A stretch of DNA of 41,607 nt, from the NCBI GenBank assembly GCA_947166565.1, contig CAMVEL010000017.1:1-41607 (forward strand), read 5' to 3'. Origin of the DNA: an uncultured Erysipelotrichaceae bacterium. GTDB lineage: Bacteria > Bacillota_I > Bacilli_A > RFN20 > CAG-826. Shown here piece by piece: positions 3,352 to 8,670 of the stretch (the first letter of the stretch is position 1; each line of letters begins with the position of its first letter). The notes beneath the pieces were generated by a model. It saw only the letters and a program-made list of their open reading frames with translations. It made no database searches and was not told where the DNA came from. The translations under genes were made by a program, and so were the position numbers.

Positions 3352-4263
3352 ATGGACTTACTTATTCTTGCCGCGGGCATGGGATCCCGCTTCGGAGGGC
3401 TAAAACAGATTGAGCCATTCGATGAAAGGCAAAACTTTATCATCGATTATTCGATCTATGATGCAAAGCGCGCCGGTTTTGATCGCGTCGTTTTCCTTAT
3501 CAAAGAAGAAAACCGCGAAATCTTTGAGGAAACCGTTGGAAAGCGCGTCTCAAAATACATCGATGTCGCTTATGCCTACCAAAAATTGGAAGTTATCCCA
3601 AAAGGCTATGTTCTTCCAAAGGATAGGACCAAACCTCTTGGTACCGCCCAAGCCATCTATTGCGCCAAAGACGTTTTAAAGAGCAACTTCGCTATTATCA
3701 ATTCCGATGATTTCTATGGTGCGGATGCCTTTAAAGTCGCCGCTTCTTTCCTTAAATCCTTACCAAAAGGTTCCAAAGGGCATTACGCCAATGTCGGGTA
3801 TTTTGCCAAAAACACCATGACCAAAAACGGTTCCGTCAAGCGCGGCGTCCTCAACATGGATAAGGACAACAGGCTTCTTAGCCTTGTTGAAAGCAAGCTC
3901 GAATGGCGTGGCGATGAAATCTATGCCGCTCCTCTCGATGGCGGGGAAATGAAGAGGATTTCCCACGAAAGCCTCGTCTCCATGAACATGTTCGTCTTCT
4001 CCCTCGATATCCTTGATCGCCTTGAAGAGGAATTCGTTCCATTTATGGAAGCCAACAAGAACGATCTCAGTTCTTGCGAATACCTCATTCCGACCGTTGT
4101 CTCTGATTTAATTGAAAGAGGCGAGGTTTCCTGTGAGGTTCTCTCCACCACCGCAGTTTGGTATGGCGTCACTTATCGCGATGATAAACCAGAAGTCGTC
4201 GCTTCCCTGGCCAAACTCGTCGAGGCTGGCGAATATCCAAAAGATCGCTTCGGAAAGCTATAA
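3352..4263 (+). CDS. sugar-phosphate nucleotidyltransferase family protein
   Basis: A 303-residue nucleotidyltransferase. It opens with the NTP-binding signature LILAAGMGSRFGG, and continues with PLGTAQAIYCAKD (residues ~93-105) and INSDDFYG (~116-123), the Asp pair that would hold the metal and sugar phosphate. These features belong to enzymes that activate sugar-1-phosphates with UTP, dTTP or CTP, acting in the cytoplasm. The length fits a single catalytic domain without a hexapeptide-repeat tail. The start is preceded by GAGGT about 12 nt upstream. The gene stands alone with its own terminator, but its position beside a GtrB-type glycosyltransferase operon suggests it may supply a nucleotide sugar for the same envelope glycan. 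Substrate is not predictable. Confidence 0.82.
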   Translation: MDLLILAAGMGSRFGGLKQIEPFDERQNFIIDYSIYDAKRAGFDRVVFLIKEENREIFEETVGKRVSKYIDVAYAYQKLEVIPKGYVLPKDRTKPLGTAQAIYCAKDVLKSNFAIINSDDFYGADAFKVAASFLKSLPKGSKGHYANVGYFAKNTMTKNGSVKRGVLNMDKDNRLLSLVESKLEWRGDEIYAAPLDGGEMKRISHESLVSMNMFVFSLDILDRLEEEFVPFMEANKNDLSSCEYLIPTVVSDLIERGEVSCEVLSTTAVWYGVTYRDDKPEVVASLAKLVEAGEYPKDRFGKL

Positions 4264-4276
4264 TCCCTAATTGATC

Positions 4277-4311
4277 AAAAGTGCTCGGCCAAATTTCCCG
4301 AGCACTTTTTT
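4277..4311. terminator. bidirectional intrinsic terminator
   Basis: AAAAGTGCTCGG at 4277-4288 pairs with CCGAGCACTTTT at 4298-4309, a 12-bp stem with a 9-nt loop, ending in TTTTTT on the plus strand and with a matching T-run on the minus strand. It separates the convergent nucleotidyltransferase (+) and HTH-membrane regulator (-) genes and can serve both. Confidence 0.9.
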
Positions 4312-4326
4312 CATACATGTATCGGT

Positions 4327-5283
4327 TTATTTGACATCGACGACTCTGTCTTTGGCGTGCCTTTCCCGATCACGAATTGCTTTGTCGATGGGCCCAAACA
4401 TCAAATAGAAGATAGGAATGGTGATGAAGAGGAACCAATAGAATCCGAATCCCGGGAATCCATAATGAGCTCCAAGGAAACCAAGTTTGCAATAAGCGGA
4501 GACTACAAGAATCGGATAGGCGAAATGGGTAAACCTGTGTCTAACGATGGATTCAACCATGGAGGCGATCCAGATTCCATCAAGAATAAACGTCCAGCCT
4601 AGAACCCATCCAAGGCTTCCTTCGGTCCAAGTCAGCCCGGCAACGAGGAAGGCAATGAGTCCAAGAAGAATCATTGTTCCGCCAGAGAAGATAGTGATAA
4701 GAAGAGGCTTTTTTCTTTCTTCGGTGATATCGACCCCATGAACGCGATAACGGCGTTCGCCATTTTCATCGACTTCGACTTCAACGTTTTCATCTTCGTC
4801 GTCGTCATCGTCATCGTCATCGTCGTCATCGTCTTTTTTATTCGCATGGATATGGACGGTACCAGGTTCAATGGTAATGGAGTCTTTCCCGTCGCTAAGG
4901 TGGATGCGTCCATGACCAAAGTTGACATCGGTTCCCTTCTTATGGGAAACGTCCTCAGGTTTGACTTCCTCCGCTTCAACCCTTTCAGAGTCTTGTTTTT
5001 CCTCTTGTTTAGGCTGTTCGGCCTCAGACTTCTCCTCTTCGTTTTTCTCTCTGACGTTGCGGGCGATTTCATCAATATCCGCGTCCGTGTTTAGGAGATC
5101 ATCCAACGACACTCCATAAAGCTTTGCCAAGCAGATAAGGTTATCGGTATCTGGGCTTGCTTCTGCGCGTTCCCATTTGGATACCGCCTGACGCGATAAG
5201 CCTAACTTATCCGCGAGTTCTTCCTGTGAGAGGCCGGCTTTCTTCCTTAATCCCACAAGGCGATTTGCGATTTCGATATTCAT
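4327..5283 (-). CDS. XRE-family HTH regulator with C-terminal membrane domain
   Basis: A 318-residue two-part protein. Residues ~5-60 form a Cro/C1-type helix-turn-helix (LSQEELADKLGLSRQAVSKWE). The middle (~75-190) is strongly charged: a Glu/Lys-rich stretch, a short beta-rich segment and a run of twelve Asp. Four hydrophobic segments (about 193-215, 222-243, 254-272, 280-297) follow, then a basic tail. XRE-plus-membrane proteins are common in Firmicutes and are usually thought to couple a membrane signal to transcription; the signal here is unknown. The ATG has a strong AGGAGG site. An upstream TTGCAA-18-TAATAT promoter is flanked by GGTTGC-containing inverted repeats that may be autoregulatory. 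The Asp tract is encoded by a trinucleotide repeat and could vary in length without breaking the frame. Confidence 0.87.
   Translation of the reverse strand: MNIEIANRLVGLRKKAGLSQEELADKLGLSRQAVSKWERAEASPDTDNLICLAKLYGVSLDDLLNTDADIDEIARNVREKNEEEKSEAEQPKQEEKQDSERVEAEEVKPEDVSHKKGTDVNFGHGRIHLSDGKDSITIEPGTVHIHANKKDDDDDDDDDDDDEDENVEVEVDENGERRYRVHGVDITEERKKPLLITIFSGGTMILLGLIAFLVAGLTWTEGSLGWVLGWTFILDGIWIASMVESIVRHRFTHFAYPILVVSAYCKLGFLGAHYGFPGFGFYWFLFITIPIFYLMFGPIDKAIRDRERHAKDRVVDVK
4798..4833. repeat. GTC/ATC trinucleotide microsatellite encoding poly-Asp
   Basis: Twelve consecutive triplets, GTC or ATC on the plus strand (GAC/GAT in the gene), encode twelve Asp residues within the linker of the HTH-membrane protein. 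An E-D-E stretch follows. Interruptions between GAC and GAT lower slippage, but in-frame length change remains plausible. Confidence 0.9.
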
Positions 5284-5331
5284 ACTCTTGTCCTCCTAAC
5301 GAATGAACGCCCTTATTTTTCGGTTGCGGAC

Positions 5332-5361
5332 ATATTATCGACCACCTAATCTAGTTTGCAA
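5332..5361 (-). promoter_or_regulatory. putative promoter of the HTH-membrane regulator
   Basis: On the minus strand TTGCAA (5361-5356) is followed after 18 nt by TAATAT (5337-5332), about 50 nt before the ATG at 5283. Inverted repeat GCAAC-TATCG-GTTGC at 5366-5380 adjoins the -35, and another CGGTTGC copy at 5321-5327 lies just past the -10. These are candidate sites for autoregulation. Confidence 0.5.
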
Positions 5362-5480
5362 ATGCGCAACTATCGGTTGCATGGGTATAAATATGCGGTT
5401 TCCGCAAGGTTTTCGTAATAAAAATCTATATCTTCCAAAAACTAAGCAAATCTCAAACATTTGCATAAAAAGAAAGAAAA

Positions 5481-5503
5481 CCCACCCGATTTTAAGGGGT
5501 GGG
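5481..5503. terminator. bidirectional terminator at left edge of RiPP cassette
   Basis: CCCACCC (5481-5487) pairs with GGGTGGG (5497-5503) around a 9-nt loop. On the minus strand the stem runs into TTTTCTTTC; on the plus strand a T7 run follows after a short gap. It would end transcription coming leftward from the oxidoreductase gene and shield the HTH gene. Confidence 0.82.
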
Positions 5504-5524
5504 AATGTCTTTTTTTGTCTCAAT

Positions 5525-5615
5525 GTAACGACGTTACTAGTAAACACGACCTATCGTAACGACATTAATAGTACTATCGTAACGACATTACACTATGTGT
5601 AGAGTTATTTAACAA
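5525..5615 (-). promoter_or_regulatory. three tandem palindromic sites with a putative promoter
   Basis: Three similar 13-bp sites occur at 5525-5537 (GTAACGACGTTAC, a perfect 6-1-6 palindrome), 5556-5568 (GTAACGACATTAA) and 5579-5591 (GTAACGACATTAC). On the minus strand TTGTTA (5615-5610) and TGTAAT (5592-5587) are spaced 17 nt, so the putative -10 overlaps the third site. A transcript from here would meet the terminator at 5481-5503 after roughly 100 nt. No open reading frame with a ribosome site is visible in it. This may be a repressed small RNA or an operator cluster. Confidence 0.45.
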
Positions 5616-5694
5616 TTACGCTTTATTAAATTATTTTATGTATATGTTATCTTAGGCTTCGTAGTGAAACCTGTTACAAAATGCAAAAGAAATG

Positions 5695-6642
5695 TTACAT
5701 AGTAACAACTATTTTACCGTCGACACCTTTTTCTTGTGCCTTAATCGCCGCTTTTATATCGCTGAATTTATAGGAAGCACCAATAAATGGTTTCAAGTTG
5801 TATTCATTAATAAATTTAAATAGCGAGTCCACTACTTCTTGAGTTGGATAATTTGAAAAGAAGCCAGTGAGATAAACACCATTTGGTATTTCTTTAATTG
5901 GGTCAAATCCGTTTAAGAAATATTCTCCACCAAGAATACCAGTGTTACACACGATTCCTCCATGATAACAGCATCTTAAAGAATCTCTCAATGTCTTTGG
6001 ACCAATGAGTTCAAGCACTTTATTTGCGTATACCTTTCCCGCAATTTTACCTTCTGGATCCAAAATAGCTTTGCAACCTAAATCAGTGATAAAATGCATC
6101 TTTTCTTGTTTATGAGTAGTGCCAATCACTTGGCATCCTAATGCTTTAGCAATTTGCATAGAAGCATAGCCTAATGCAGAAGTTGCTCCTCTAACTAATA
6201 AAATATCTTTCTTTTCTAGCTTTAAACATTCAAATAATGATCCCCAGGCGGTAAAAAATGTCTCTGGAATTGCGGCTAGATATTTCATATCTAAATCGCT
6301 ATGAATATGAAATAATTTACTAATTGGTAATATTGCATATTCTTCATATGAACCATTAAAATTTCTTCCCATTCCGCCCATCATGGAGCAGACTTTATCA
6401 CCGGCTTTAAATTCTTCATCTAATGATTCTTCAATCACTCCTACACATTCAATACCAGGAACAATTGGTTTTTTAATATAATCCGCTCTGATTTCGTTCA
6501 CTCTTAAAACGAGTTCAGAATGATTCATACCAAATCCTAATATTTTAACTAAAGGCCAGCCCTTTTGAGCCTTGGGCTTTTCAATATTTTCTAAGACGAT
6601 ATCATCACTATTAGTGATATCTTTAAGCACTACTGCTTTCAT
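5695..6642 (-). CDS. MDR-superfamily NAD(P)H-dependent oxidoreductase in RiPP cassette
   Basis: About 315 residues from the ATG at 6642. I chose this start because GGAGGT lies 6 nt upstream and the ATG overlaps the stop of the radical SAM gene (TAATG), which implies translational coupling. The N-terminal GroES-like half includes PGIECVGVIEE and a GDKVCSM turn; the Rossmann half begins with VRGATSALGYASMQIAKALG, a nucleotide-binding loop like that of quinone oxidoreductases. The structural-zinc Cys cluster of classical alcohol dehydrogenases is absent, so it belongs with quinone reductase / enoyl-reductase-like MDR proteins. Base composition is as AT-rich as its cassette partners. In this context it may reduce a group on the modified peptide or supply reducing equivalents; that is inference, and an unrelated metabolic role is possible. 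Confidence 0.85.
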   Translation of the reverse strand: MKAVVLKDITNSDDIVLENIEKPKAQKGWPLVKILGFGMNHSELVLRVNEIRADYIKKPIVPGIECVGVIEESLDEEFKAGDKVCSMMGGMGRNFNGSYEEYAILPISKLFHIHSDLDMKYLAAIPETFFTAWGSLFECLKLEKKDILLVRGATSALGYASMQIAKALGCQVIGTTHKQEKMHFITDLGCKAILDPEGKIAGKVYANKVLELIGPKTLRDSLRCCYHGGIVCNTGILGGEYFLNGFDPIKEIPNGVYLTGFFSNYPTQEVVDSLFKFINEYNLKPFIGASYKFSDIKAAIKAQEKGVDGKIVVTM

Positions 6643-7682
6643 TATTCTACCTCCATCCAGCACTGCGGATCTGCATCATACATATTACATGTATAACCAT
6701 AGGTTACAGATGGACAACCTCGACAAAATGCTTTTAATTTACACTTATTGCATTTAACAAACTTATGATATTGGCGATATTCATCCATCTTAGAAGAATT
6801 CCAAATATCGTATAAGTCTCTTAAAAATATATTCCCAACAGGTGAATCCATTCTTCGGCAAGCATAAACCATCCCTGTTGGTAAGATAGTGATGTGATTT
6901 CTAGCAATATTACATCCATCCACGATTTGGTTTTCGCCTAAACCTTCAAAATTAGGTTTAAAGATGCCTTTTTCATATAAATATAATGCCCACAAATGAT
7001 CTTTTAATTGATAGGTCACTTTACTATCTTTATGTTTCATATATTTTTCATAACATCTATCCATGAACTTTTTGTATTCAAGAGGTGTCATATGGATATC
7101 TGGATCATAAGCTTTATCTACACTTGTGGGGCAATATCTTCCTACCGCATAGACATCTACACCTAATTCATCCACCAAATCAATTAATTCTGGGATATCT
7201 TGATGATTAGTTTTGTTAACTGTAGACATCACCGCGACCCACATACCGGATTCCTTTATTATTTTTATTGCCTTGAGTGTAGCTTTGTAACTGCCTGGTT
7301 TTCTAAATGAATCATGCATTTCTTCTAGGCCATCTAAGGATACTTGATATTTAACACATCCCAATTCTTTCATTCTCTTACAATTCTCTAAGGTAAGATG
7401 AAAGGGATTGCCCATAATGCAAAAGCGAATGTTGTTCTTATTGAAATATTCTAATAACTGCCAAAAATTTGGATGGAGAATTGGGTCTCCTCCAGTTAAA
7501 TAAATATAAGGTTTACGATTAATTTTTTGACAAAAATCTATGATTTGATTAGTAACAAAAATCATATGGTCAAGACTCATTGTAATGAGTTCAGGATGAC
7601 CTTCGGAGAAAATATAACAATGTTTACAACGTTGATCACAATAATCAGTGATATGCCACTGAATCGCGAAATAATTTTCCAT
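6642..7682 (-). CDS. radical SAM/SPASM peptide maturase
   Basis: A 346-residue enzyme with the radical SAM signature C15-X3-C19-X2-C22 (DYCDQRCKHCY) for the SAM-binding [4Fe-4S] cluster and the SAM-contacting GGDP motif (LTGGDPILHP). The last ~95 residues hold eight Cys, at about 257, 275, 311, 314, 320, 323, 332 and 341, including CX2CX5CX2C. This is a SPASM-type domain carrying auxiliary Fe-S clusters, as in enzymes that crosslink ribosomal peptides. The gene starts 52 nt after the repeat peptide's stop. No Shine-Dalgarno is visible before its ATG, and a hairpin separates the two, so the enzyme should be made in smaller amounts than the peptide. The ACG-repeat substrate recalls the 'ACGX' radical SAM family and CX3D ranthipeptide enzymes. 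The nearest family cannot be settled without a profile search. Confidence 0.92.
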   Translation of the reverse strand: MENYFAIQWHITDYCDQRCKHCYIFSEGHPELITMSLDHMIFVTNQIIDFCQKINRKPYIYLTGGDPILHPNFWQLLEYFNKNNIRFCIMGNPFHLTLENCKRMKELGCVKYQVSLDGLEEMHDSFRKPGSYKATLKAIKIIKESGMWVAVMSTVNKTNHQDIPELIDLVDELGVDVYAVGRYCPTSVDKAYDPDIHMTPLEYKKFMDRCYEKYMKHKDSKVTYQLKDHLWALYLYEKGIFKPNFEGLGENQIVDGCNIARNHITILPTGMVYACRRMDSPVGNIFLRDLYDIWNSSKMDEYRQYHKFVKCNKCKLKAFCRGCPSVTYGYTCNMYDADPQCWMEVE

Positions 7683-7699
7683 AATCGTTTGAAAGAATA

Positions 7700-7728
7700 A
7701 GGGGTGAAATAATTAACATCTCACCCCT
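7700..7728 (-). terminator. hairpin between precursor peptide and maturase
   Basis: AGGGGTGA (7700-7707) pairs with TCACCCCT (7721-7728), an 8-bp stem with a 13-nt loop, 6 nt after the peptide stop. On the minus strand it is followed by TTATTCTTTC, a broken T-run. It fits a leaky terminator or a 3'-end stabiliser that gives more peptide mRNA than enzyme mRNA, a common arrangement in RiPP operons. Confidence 0.65.
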
Positions 7729-7734
7729 GACTTA

Positions 7735-7887
7735 TTATTTAGGATCTTTTGTACCACAAGCAGGTGCTGGTTCTGGGTCTTTTGTACCACAAGCAGGTGC
7801 TGGTTCAGGATCCTTACTGCCACATGCTGGGGCTGGCTTCGGATCAGCGGAGCCACAAGCTGTGCTGAATAAGTTGAGCTCTAACAT
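7735..7887 (-). CDS. RiPP precursor peptide with four Cys-X3-Asp repeats
   Basis: A 50-residue peptide. Residues 1-9 (MLELNLFST) look like a short leader. Four units of consensus ACG(S/T)(K/A)DP(E/K)PAP start at residues 10, 21, 32 and 43; the last stops after DPK. The only cysteines are 11, 22, 33 and 44, each followed four residues later by Asp (15, 26, 37, 48), an exact 11-residue period. The ATG lies 10 nt after AAGGAGG. The maturase follows directly, so this is almost certainly its substrate. Cys-X3-Asp repeats are the crosslink sites of the ranthipeptide freyrasin (Cys S to Asp C-beta), so up to four thioethers are predicted. No Gly-Gly cleavage site, protease or exporter is seen nearby. 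The Pro/Ala linkers (PxPAP) would keep the rings apart. Confidence 0.9.
   Translation of the reverse strand: MLELNLFSTACGSADPKPAPACGSKDPEPAPACGTKDPEPAPACGTKDPK
7744..7842 (-). repeat. 33-bp tandem repeats encoding the peptide core
   Basis: Three 33-bp units lie head to tail at 7744-7776, 7777-7809 and 7810-7842. The first two match at 31 of 33 positions; the third is more diverged but codes for nearly the same 11 residues. A recent duplication within the core is the simplest explanation, and copy number may vary between strains. Confidence 0.9.
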
Positions 7888-7915
7888 ATTCTTTTTTCCT
7901 CCTTATCATTATTAT

Positions 7916-7973
7916 TTGTTTTTAATAATGGCAAAGCACTGTATAATATTAGACAAAGTGTCGGATTTTCATT
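7916..7973. promoter_or_regulatory. divergent promoters with TetR-type operator palindrome
   Basis: The 16-bp near-palindrome TGTATAATATTAGACA (7940-7955) has half-sites TGT(A/C)TAAT differing at one position, a typical size for a TetR-family operator. On the plus strand it contains TATAAT (7942-7947), a -10 for the regulator at 7974. On the minus strand it contains TATTAT, with ATGAAA 18 nt upstream, a possible promoter for the peptide gene. One bound dimer would block both. The regulator's own ribosome site is weak. Confidence 0.6.
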
Positions 7974-8555
7974 ATGAGTCAATATTTAGAAGCTAGAGAA
8001 AAAACCATCGAAAAGATTGAAAAAGCTTATTTTAGCTTATACATCAAAGATAAAAAAATTACCGTTAGTGAGATATGTAAAATCGCTGGTATACATCGTT
8101 CTACCTTTTACTTTTATTATGAATGGGTTGATGATGTTCTTGATGGCATTAAAAATAGATTACTAAACAATTTAGTAAATATTGTCGAAAGTAAAGATAG
8201 AGACGATCGAGATTTTCGTAAGATTCAACTTAATCTCCGTCAAATGTTTAAAATAGACCGTTATTATTTAGTTCCCCTAGTGCTTGAACAAAGAGGTGGG
8301 AAATTCGCTGTGCAATATCGTGAATATCTTAAAGAAAAATTCGCTGAAGATTTAGGATTAGATTATAAAACTGGCAACGACGTAAAAAACGATGTTGCTA
8401 ACTGTGTTTTATCTGGAATGATTGAAATCATGCTATATGAATTATCCAGTGAAATCATTCCGGAAGAATTCACATATATAATCGGTAGAGGAATTATTGA
8501 TAAAGGTGTTAATAAGACACTAAATGAAGATTTAAATATAAAATTTGGAAAATAA
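7974..8555 (+). CDS. TetR/AcrR-family transcriptional regulator
   Basis: A 193-residue protein with an N-terminal TetR-type helix-turn-helix (ITVSEICKIAGIHRSTFYFYY, about residues 29-49) followed by a helical domain that would form the ligand pocket and dimer interface. It is divergent from the peptide-maturase-oxidoreductase operon with 86 nt between the starts, and a 16-bp palindrome lies in that gap. The usual TetR arrangement is repression of the neighbouring operon and of itself, relieved by a small ligand; the ligand here is unknown. Start choice rests on reading frame and fold, as no good Shine-Dalgarno is present. AT content matches the cassette. The C-terminal domain matches no subfamily I recognise. 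Confidence 0.85.
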   Translation: MSQYLEAREKTIEKIEKAYFSLYIKDKKITVSEICKIAGIHRSTFYFYYEWVDDVLDGIKNRLLNNLVNIVESKDRDDRDFRKIQLNLRQMFKIDRYYLVPLVLEQRGGKFAVQYREYLKEKFAEDLGLDYKTGNDVKNDVANCVLSGMIEIMLYELSSEIIPEEFTYIIGRGIIDKGVNKTLNEDLNIKFGK

Positions 8556-8557
8556 AA

Positions 8558-8593: not shown

Positions 8594-8670
8594 TGGCGCG
8601 CTTGACACGATTCGAACGTGCGACCCTCTCCTTAGGAGGGAGATGCTCTGTCCAGCTGAGCTACAAGCGC
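8594..8670 (-). tRNA. tRNA-Arg (anticodon CCU)
   Basis: A complete 77-nt cloverleaf with encoded CCA. The acceptor arms GCGCTTG and CAAGCGC pair fully, the T arm carries TTCGAAT, and the seven-base anticodon loop CTCCTAA gives anticodon CCU (reads AGG). A promoter TTGGAT-18-TATAAT lies just upstream. The 3' end of the gene faces the AT-rich RiPP cassette, a usual position for integrated elements. Confidence 0.95.

Follow-up and report, generated by a model that had tools for sequence, protein, structure and literature searches.

Introduction

Two of the described systems closest to the one treated here yield the same heterocycle. According to a review, the radical S-adenosylmethionine (SAM) enzyme SbtM removes four hydrogens from its substrates, which contain Cys or Sec, and a thiooxazole results in the Cys case (PMC11002830). 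Captophorin peptides with EGKCG repeats are reported to lose four hydrogens per repeat (PMC12668002) and reach the same ring through unrelated iron enzymes (PMC12668002, PMC12538549, PMC12452194). Also reported are one captophorin-type cluster without a nearby protease (PMC12538549), aerobic assays of FonBC (PMC12668002) and signal peptides on bufferin and oxazolin precursors. Thiooxazoles are known mainly from oxygen-linked iron enzymes. NCBI already names a further pair, acgM/acgA of the ACGX system (TIGR04340/TIGR04341), which so far is just a name in a profile library; our literature search found no paper matching it. Here we describe an ACGX locus in a 41,607-nucleotide contig (CAMVEL010000017.1, hereafter the window) of an uncultured Erysipelotrichaceae bacterium whose close kin are ruminant-gut dwellers. 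The explanation we favour, at roughly even odds and from sequence evidence, is a mobile cassette for a ribosomally synthesized and post-translationally modified peptide (RiPP), in which AcgM would make thiooxazoles and AcgA would act as an intracellular polythiol. The two central genes are:

6642–7682, minus strand: acgM, radical SAM/SPASM maturase of 346 amino acids (Pfam Radical_SAM and SPASM; 470.7 bits to TIGR04340)
7735–7887, minus strand: acgA, 50-amino-acid precursor, MLELNLFST followed by four ACG[ST] repeats spaced by DPxPAP

Results

AcgM and AcgA Form a Variant ACGX Pair

A preliminary description, made from the letters of the window, had reported a gene for a 50-residue Cys-repeat peptide beside a radical SAM/SPASM enzyme with a CX3CX2C motif and eight C-terminal Cys, and had proposed a search against peptide-maturase profiles. 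Both genes are as it said, and the search assigned AcgM to the ACGX family, well above the TIGR04340 cut-off of 400 bits. The cluster motif is C15-x3-C19-x2-C22, and all three Cys are invariant in the 38 aligned homologs. Seven of the eight C-terminal Cys (257, 275, 311, 314, 320, 323, and 341) are likewise Cys in 38 of 38, the number that two auxiliary clusters in a SPASM domain would call for. AcgA carries the tandem motif that gives the system its name, but its profile, TIGR04341 (cut-off 28 bits), gave no match up to an E-value of 10, in a search whose HMMER filters discard most weak matches. Since the enzyme passes its profile and the peptide is missed by its own, the locus is, as judged from these profiles, a divergent example of the catalogued system. 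Among ten other AcgA peptides, four pass TIGR04341 (L055, L113, L114, and L125) and six fail, of which L006, L008, L091, L104, and L109 had no match and L107 scored 16.3 bits; of two further peptides, L111 passes and L103, from a methanogen, fails. Peptides encoded with TIGR04340 enzymes often fail in this way, so TIGR04341 spans only part of the range of TIGR04340.

That acgA might be a chance open reading frame (ORF) was rejected on two grounds. No other stop-to-stop frame of the window has four or more ACG motifs, and none arose in 200 mononucleotide shuffles. Moreover, compared with locus L005, 25 codons differ, 22 of them synonymously, and 23 of the 25 changes fall at third positions; the four changes relative to L003 are all synonymous. 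The gene looks translated, and because the changes are concentrated at third codon positions, the comparison shows strong purifying selection on it.

To place the pair in a wider context we surveyed 40 loci, taken as the best matches of each search after four duplicates (L056, L122, L123, and L124) were excluded; L125, L126, and L128 stand outside this set, and the alignment of 38 AcgMs leaves out L007 and L116, in which acgM is split in two. Much of the survey comes from one methanogen family, so the loci are not independent. An ACG-repeat ORF lies directly upstream of acgM in 35 loci and is cut by the contig end in three more, which supports the RiPP-type enzyme–substrate pair of the preliminary description. 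No such ORF was found upstream of acgM in L106 and L115, nor, later, within 6 kb of acgM in L126. Taken over the whole survey, homologs are not consistently without a Cys-repeat peptide, the pattern named beforehand as speaking against the pair. The 35 upstream peptides hold 2 to 11 Cys each and 217 in all. Of these Cys, 208 are preceded by Ala and 216 are followed by Gly; position −2 is Thr or Ser for 192 of them, position +2 is Ser, Thr, Ala or Glu for 210, and position +3 is acidic (Asp or Glu) for 149. This count includes four flawed rows, L117 and L118 (cut by the contig end), L101 (masked bases), and L102 (out of frame past about the eighth repeat); without them, 31 peptides with 196 Cys have Ala before 187 and Gly after 195. 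The L057 peptide was counted from a trimmed start.

The TIGR04340 cut-off was passed in 27 of 119 genomes sampled from the family to which the Methanobacteriaceae record of L008 belongs, in 5 of 392 from the phylum of the window (its own genome included), in 4 of 43 from one family of its class, and in 2 of its 96 nearest relatives, one being its own genome; a third relative has acgM in two frames. None of 149 genomes from the phylum of the Coriobacteriales metagenome-assembled genome (MAG) G587 contained the family, in a search whose control also gave no match. Annotated phage records gave 22 matches, all below 60% identity, with 15 listed at 22–26%.

Two side observations belong here. Other SPASM proteins of about 470–510 amino acids, in the genome of the window (L002) and in methanogen genomes (L052, L086), fall under the ACGX cut-off; the L002 protein (G000:C3:27029-28060, about 470 amino acids), which has similar matches in other relatives, passed no NCBIfam cut-off among the 25 models listed. 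A second peptide family is encoded in L091, L095, L103, and L115, on the minus strand and 1.2–3.6 kb downstream from where acgM starts, near HxlR genes in methanogen-family loci. It has an AcgA-like leader (NDWNENEKFS..IAQDV) and TSCCIDTT repeats (letters seen in L091, L103, and L115), and the acgM of L115 adjoins only this peptide.

AcgM Is Kin to SbtM

Beyond its own family, the NCBIfam model that AcgM matches best is SbtM (TIGR04082, 195.4 bits), followed by AhbD (133.1); the mycofactocin maturase model gives 93.5. All 38 AcgMs match both TIGR04340 and SbtM (best E-values 1.6e-180 and 1.2e-61), the next family following at 1.4e-40. In BLAST comparisons AcgM gave 138–157 bits to 12 SbtMs and 28–134 bits to 21 other radical SAM proteins, and a quick tree of 50 rows joined AcgM and SbtM in one clade (SH-aLRT 98). 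SbtM, which passes its cut-off in 19 of 245 genomes of one phylum, was found in none of seven genomes or records examined earlier. We inspected 12 SbtM loci with 1.5-kb flanks, translating frames with TGA as selenocysteine (U), and beside five of them found repeats such as SSUGG, SSUAG, SSUSG, and SGUGA. In L130 and L140, two different selenocysteine-type repeat peptides stand upstream of one SbtM gene. Given the SSUG-like and ACG repeats, both sister enzymes adjoin peptides with a repeated small-small-Cys/Sec-small motif. The two systems differ in that AcgM has no N-terminal extension and AcgA has another leader.

These comparisons show, at the level of sequence, that the gene next to acgM encodes a conserved repeat peptide, AcgA, and that AcgM is kin to SbtM; membership in SbtM itself we rejected, as AcgM lies under the TIGR04082 cut-off and is a sister rather than a member. 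Thiooxazole formation thereby becomes the best-supported chemistry, an inference with about an even chance of being right. AcgM would read the short motif [T/S]-A-C-G-[S/T/A/E] and remove four hydrogens from the Cys of each copy, the carbonyl oxygen of Ala closing on the Cys beta-carbon. The product would be a 5-thiooxazole, up to four per peptide in the window, and the modified AcgA would remain intracellular, where its several thiols would bind soft metals or be redox-active.

Several observations weigh against this explanation. AcgM and SbtM share just 28–30% identity, and the score of AcgM falls short of the SbtM cut-off of 350 bits, with the first 200 or so profile positions uncovered. 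The tree was built quickly, several of its outgroup branches are long, and none of its outgroups is known as a characterised thioether maturase. A NirJ/AhbD-like protein from L052 scores 134 bits to AcgM, near the weakest SbtM (138). An SbtA-like peptide was not seen within the 1.5-kb flanks of 7 of the 12 SbtM loci, and AcgA is without selenocysteine. The closest solved sequence to AcgM is SkfB, a sactipeptide maturase (phmmer, E-value 5.3e-14). The structural model of AcgM has a predicted local distance difference test (pLDDT) score of 75.6, and its SPASM part is poor (below 50 at 242–260, 305–334, and 336–346). The regulators at these loci are not known to be copper sensors. Finally, the chemistry of AcgM and the roles of the neighbouring oxidoreductase and the peptide are all inferred from sequence.

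Some of these points suit a thioether RiPP of the ranthipeptide or sactipeptide kind, in which AcgM would join the Cys sulfur to the carbon of a nearby residue with a loss of 2 Da per ring. The preliminary description had taken thioether or related crosslinks as its default, from the pairing of a SPASM enzyme with a Cys-repeat peptide, which ranthipeptides and sactipeptides share. Besides the likeness to SkfB, a Foldseek search with the AcgM model placed BlsE, SkfB, SuiB, anSME, TigE, and 5why (titled thioether bond formation in sactipeptides) within the top 16, and 149 of the 217 Cys have an acidic residue at +3. However, the fold matches are general to SPASM enzymes and therefore do not help in choosing a chemistry, and the near-fixed positions are the Ala before and the Gly after Cys, with no single acceptor residue. 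Moreover, AcgM scores only 72.5 bits to StsB, 67 to PapB (NF047865, cut-off 340) and 59.9 to SkfB, against 195.4 to SbtM. On these three profiles we dropped the filing as a ranthipeptide or sactipeptide, and with it the default, and consider thioether formation improbable, at something like one chance in five.

A Conserved but Interchangeable Oxidoreductase

The gene downstream of acgM is the following:

5695–6642, minus strand: oxidoreductase of the medium-chain dehydrogenase/reductase (MDR) superfamily, quinone-reductase type (Pfam ADH_N and ADH_zinc_N)

The protein reads GIEC at what we take to be the position of the GHE motif of zinc-dependent alcohol dehydrogenases. Its likely start is the ATG at 6642, which overlaps the acgM stop as TAATG and has GGAGG upstream, so the coupling reported earlier holds. 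The preliminary description had also counted a reductase as third gene among the oddities of the locus, and here the survey pointed the other way: an MDR of one sequence cluster occurs in 33 of 40 loci, starting no more than 1200 nt from the acgM start in 30, and the other seven have other redox proteins. A nitroreductase starts 1.0–1.9 kb from the acgM start in L055, L057, L112, and L114; in L106 an FMN-reductase pair follows at 1.1 kb and a nitroreductase at 4.0 kb; and, among the remaining loci without MDR, L107 has a PNPOx-4Fe4S protein and L115 an upstream FMN-reductase. Some oxidoreductase thus neighbours acgM in all 40 loci. MDR and nitroreductase never share a locus (0 of 40; hypergeometric P 3e-5 assuming independent loci, which they are not), and the two types need three changes on the AcgM tree, where L128, with an MDR, sits among nitroreductase loci. 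Because an oxidoreductase is present throughout and these two types are mutually exclusive, we read it from the gene neighbourhoods as part of the ACGX system. It (the MDR here) may handle electrons or reset an oxidised product with NAD(P)H, and we read redox function as competing with metal binding for the role of ACGX. A PNPOx domain fused to 4Fe-4S motifs is encoded in 27 of the 40 loci.

The ubiquity of this partner brings to mind the mycofactocin system, which, like the locus in the window, combines a short peptide, a SPASM enzyme, and a dehydrogenase partner, and has a TetR-type regulator where the window has a tentatively TetR-like one. By analogy, the modified peptide would be a redox carrier or cofactor for the adjoining oxidoreductase, the true effector, which would have been swapped several times. 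The mutual exclusion of MDR and nitroreductase and their three changes on the tree agree with this, as does the divergent HxlR regulator that 23 of 40 loci encode, 22 of them with an N-terminal Cys; one HxlR scored 120 bits to the model of the redox regulator RrpB, under its cut-off of 175. Nevertheless, the mycofactocin peptide is cut by peptidases, and none was recognised at ACGX loci; 2 to 11 Cys per peptide suit a polyvalent binder better than one cofactor; and the 93.5 bits of AcgM to the mycofactocin maturase are far from the cut-off of 265. We regard a mycofactocin-like role as unlikely, on a par with the thioether alternative. Less probable still, perhaps one chance in ten, is a scheme with two tailoring enzymes, in which AcgM would dehydrogenate or desulfurise Cys and the product would then be reduced by the MDR, in the manner of LanJ-type enzymes. 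The overlap of the two genes and the quinone/enoyl-reductase type of the MDR would fit, but swaps for unrelated reductases suit a general reducing role.

The lack of an exporter or protease noted in the preliminary description is consistent with the survey, in which none was recognised among the identified shared neighbours, many neighbours not having been searched for family; one locus, L055, has an annotated transporter of the major facilitator superfamily, about 1.5 kb upstream. Sir2-type genes occur at 6 of the 40 loci and a macrodomain gene at three (for example L055:8322-9972, and L113 downstream of the MDR), a possible link of ACGX to ADP-ribosylation.

The Cassette Appears to Move as a Unit

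The preliminary description placed four genes, on the strands given here, within 5695–8555, in good agreement with the block of homology found by comparison with other loci:

5667–8556: whole four-gene cassette, common to L003, L005, L006, and L007, with unlike flanks

Identity over this block is 94% to L003, a goat reticulum Bacilli MAG, and 73–77% to L005, L006, and L007. The matches stop within about 40 bases or less of the same two points, and beyond them blastn (E-value 1e-5) found no flank homology with these four loci except a tRNA-Pro gene in L003. The GC content of the cassette is 0.334, compared with a mean of 0.459 (standard deviation 0.026, minimum 0.418) across 330 windows in the rest of the window. 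Since the shared block ends sharply, its flanks differ, and its GC is low, we read these four genes from the sequence comparison as a discrete, mobile unit. The match coordinates of L005 and L007 are those of genomes G003 and G018, listed in the genus of the window.

A tRNA-borne element was considered and rejected: L005, L006, and L007 are without a tRNA and the nearest in L003 is 642 bases off. As these loci carry the complete cassette with no adjoining tRNA, the tRNA-Arg at 8594–8670 of the window is probably incidental. Elsewhere, ACGX relatives were found on plasmid records of Roseburia, Methanosphaera, and Subdoligranulum, and L128 has a phage-integrase-like gene (Pfam Phage_int_M) directly past acgA-acgM-MDR. 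On L125, a 24-kb IMG/VR contig, the genes run in the order lysis-type amidase, acgA, acgM, ABM-domain gene, nitroreductase (4243–7934), possibly an ACGX cassette carried as phage cargo. L126, a 504-kb IMG/VR contig, has acgM at 5941–7026 (480.6 bits to TIGR04340) near a tail-fibre gene. The split acgM genes mentioned above are those of the Methanosphaera plasmid pNP174 (L056/L116) and of a rumen Bacilli MAG (L007).

Outside the cassette, at 5525–5592, GTAACGACRTTA recurs in the window: two 17-nt copies, 23 nt apart, match exactly, and a further copy is related. These repeats lie upstream of a helix-turn-helix gene (4327–5283) and are possibly an operator array.

A Divergent Regulator and a Candidate Operator

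The fourth gene and the interval before it comprise:

7952–7962: candidate operator GACA-N3-TGTC, in the interval separating acgA from the regulator gene; all five aligned loci retain both half-sites
7974–8555, plus strand: divergent TetR-like regulator (weak matches)

The gene is divergent, as the preliminary description had it, and its assignment to TetR is plausible rather than proven. Against Pfam TetR models no match reached an E-value of 0.01. Among NCBIfam models the best was FosB, a resistance enzyme (1.2e-4), ahead of the TetR-type MftR (0.0021) and DhaS (0.009), and phmmer against PDB chains gave the TetR regulator 3kkc first (1.5e-4) and FosB chains at 0.014. The structural model is all-helical with low confidence (pLDDT 56), and the 50 listed structure matches include TetR-type proteins, with a best E-value of 0.012. 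If the assignment holds, this protein would repress both divergent genes through GACA-N3-TGTC until a ligand relieves the repression. In the survey, the TetR-like gene occurs in the window and its nearest kin (5 of 40 loci). What the window has in common with other ACGX loci is an enzyme above the curated cut-off, an ACG peptide just upstream, and the adjoining MDR; it differs in having a TetR-like gene in place of HxlR, no PNPOx-4Fe4S gene within survey range, and a peptide that escapes TIGR04341, with nine residues before the first repeat.

Discussion

If AcgM makes thiooxazoles, the nearest functional parallels are the captophorins, bufferins, and oxazolins, which share with AcgA short Cys-Gly repeats (EGKCG types) in varying number, the proposed product and, in one reported cluster, a missing protease. 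Their enzymes are iron enzymes of the MNIO family, unrelated to AcgM, and the cassette is not a captophorin cluster, which would have an MNIO enzyme and a PME1 partner where this one has a radical SAM/SPASM enzyme and an MDR. Moreover, the signal peptides described for bufferin and oxazolin precursors have no evident counterpart in AcgA when inspected by eye. Captophorins and bufferins bind copper, and AcgA would arrive at a comparable peptide without their iron enzyme.

We put forward, tentatively and as something that may well prove wrong, that ACGX is a second radical SAM lineage, beside SbtM, for oxygen-free polythiooxazoles in methanogens, rumen Bacilli, Clostridia, and a phage-like contig. 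Its polythiol, working with the interchangeable NAD(P)H/flavin oxidoreductase, would buffer redox state or soft metals inside the cell, as an anaerobic equivalent that arose convergently with bufferins and captophorins. The conserved yet swappable oxidoreductase offers a second, testable handle on ACGX function. Should AcgM indeed make thiooxazoles, it would be a second radical SAM source of this copper-binding heterocycle, and one common in a methanogen family.

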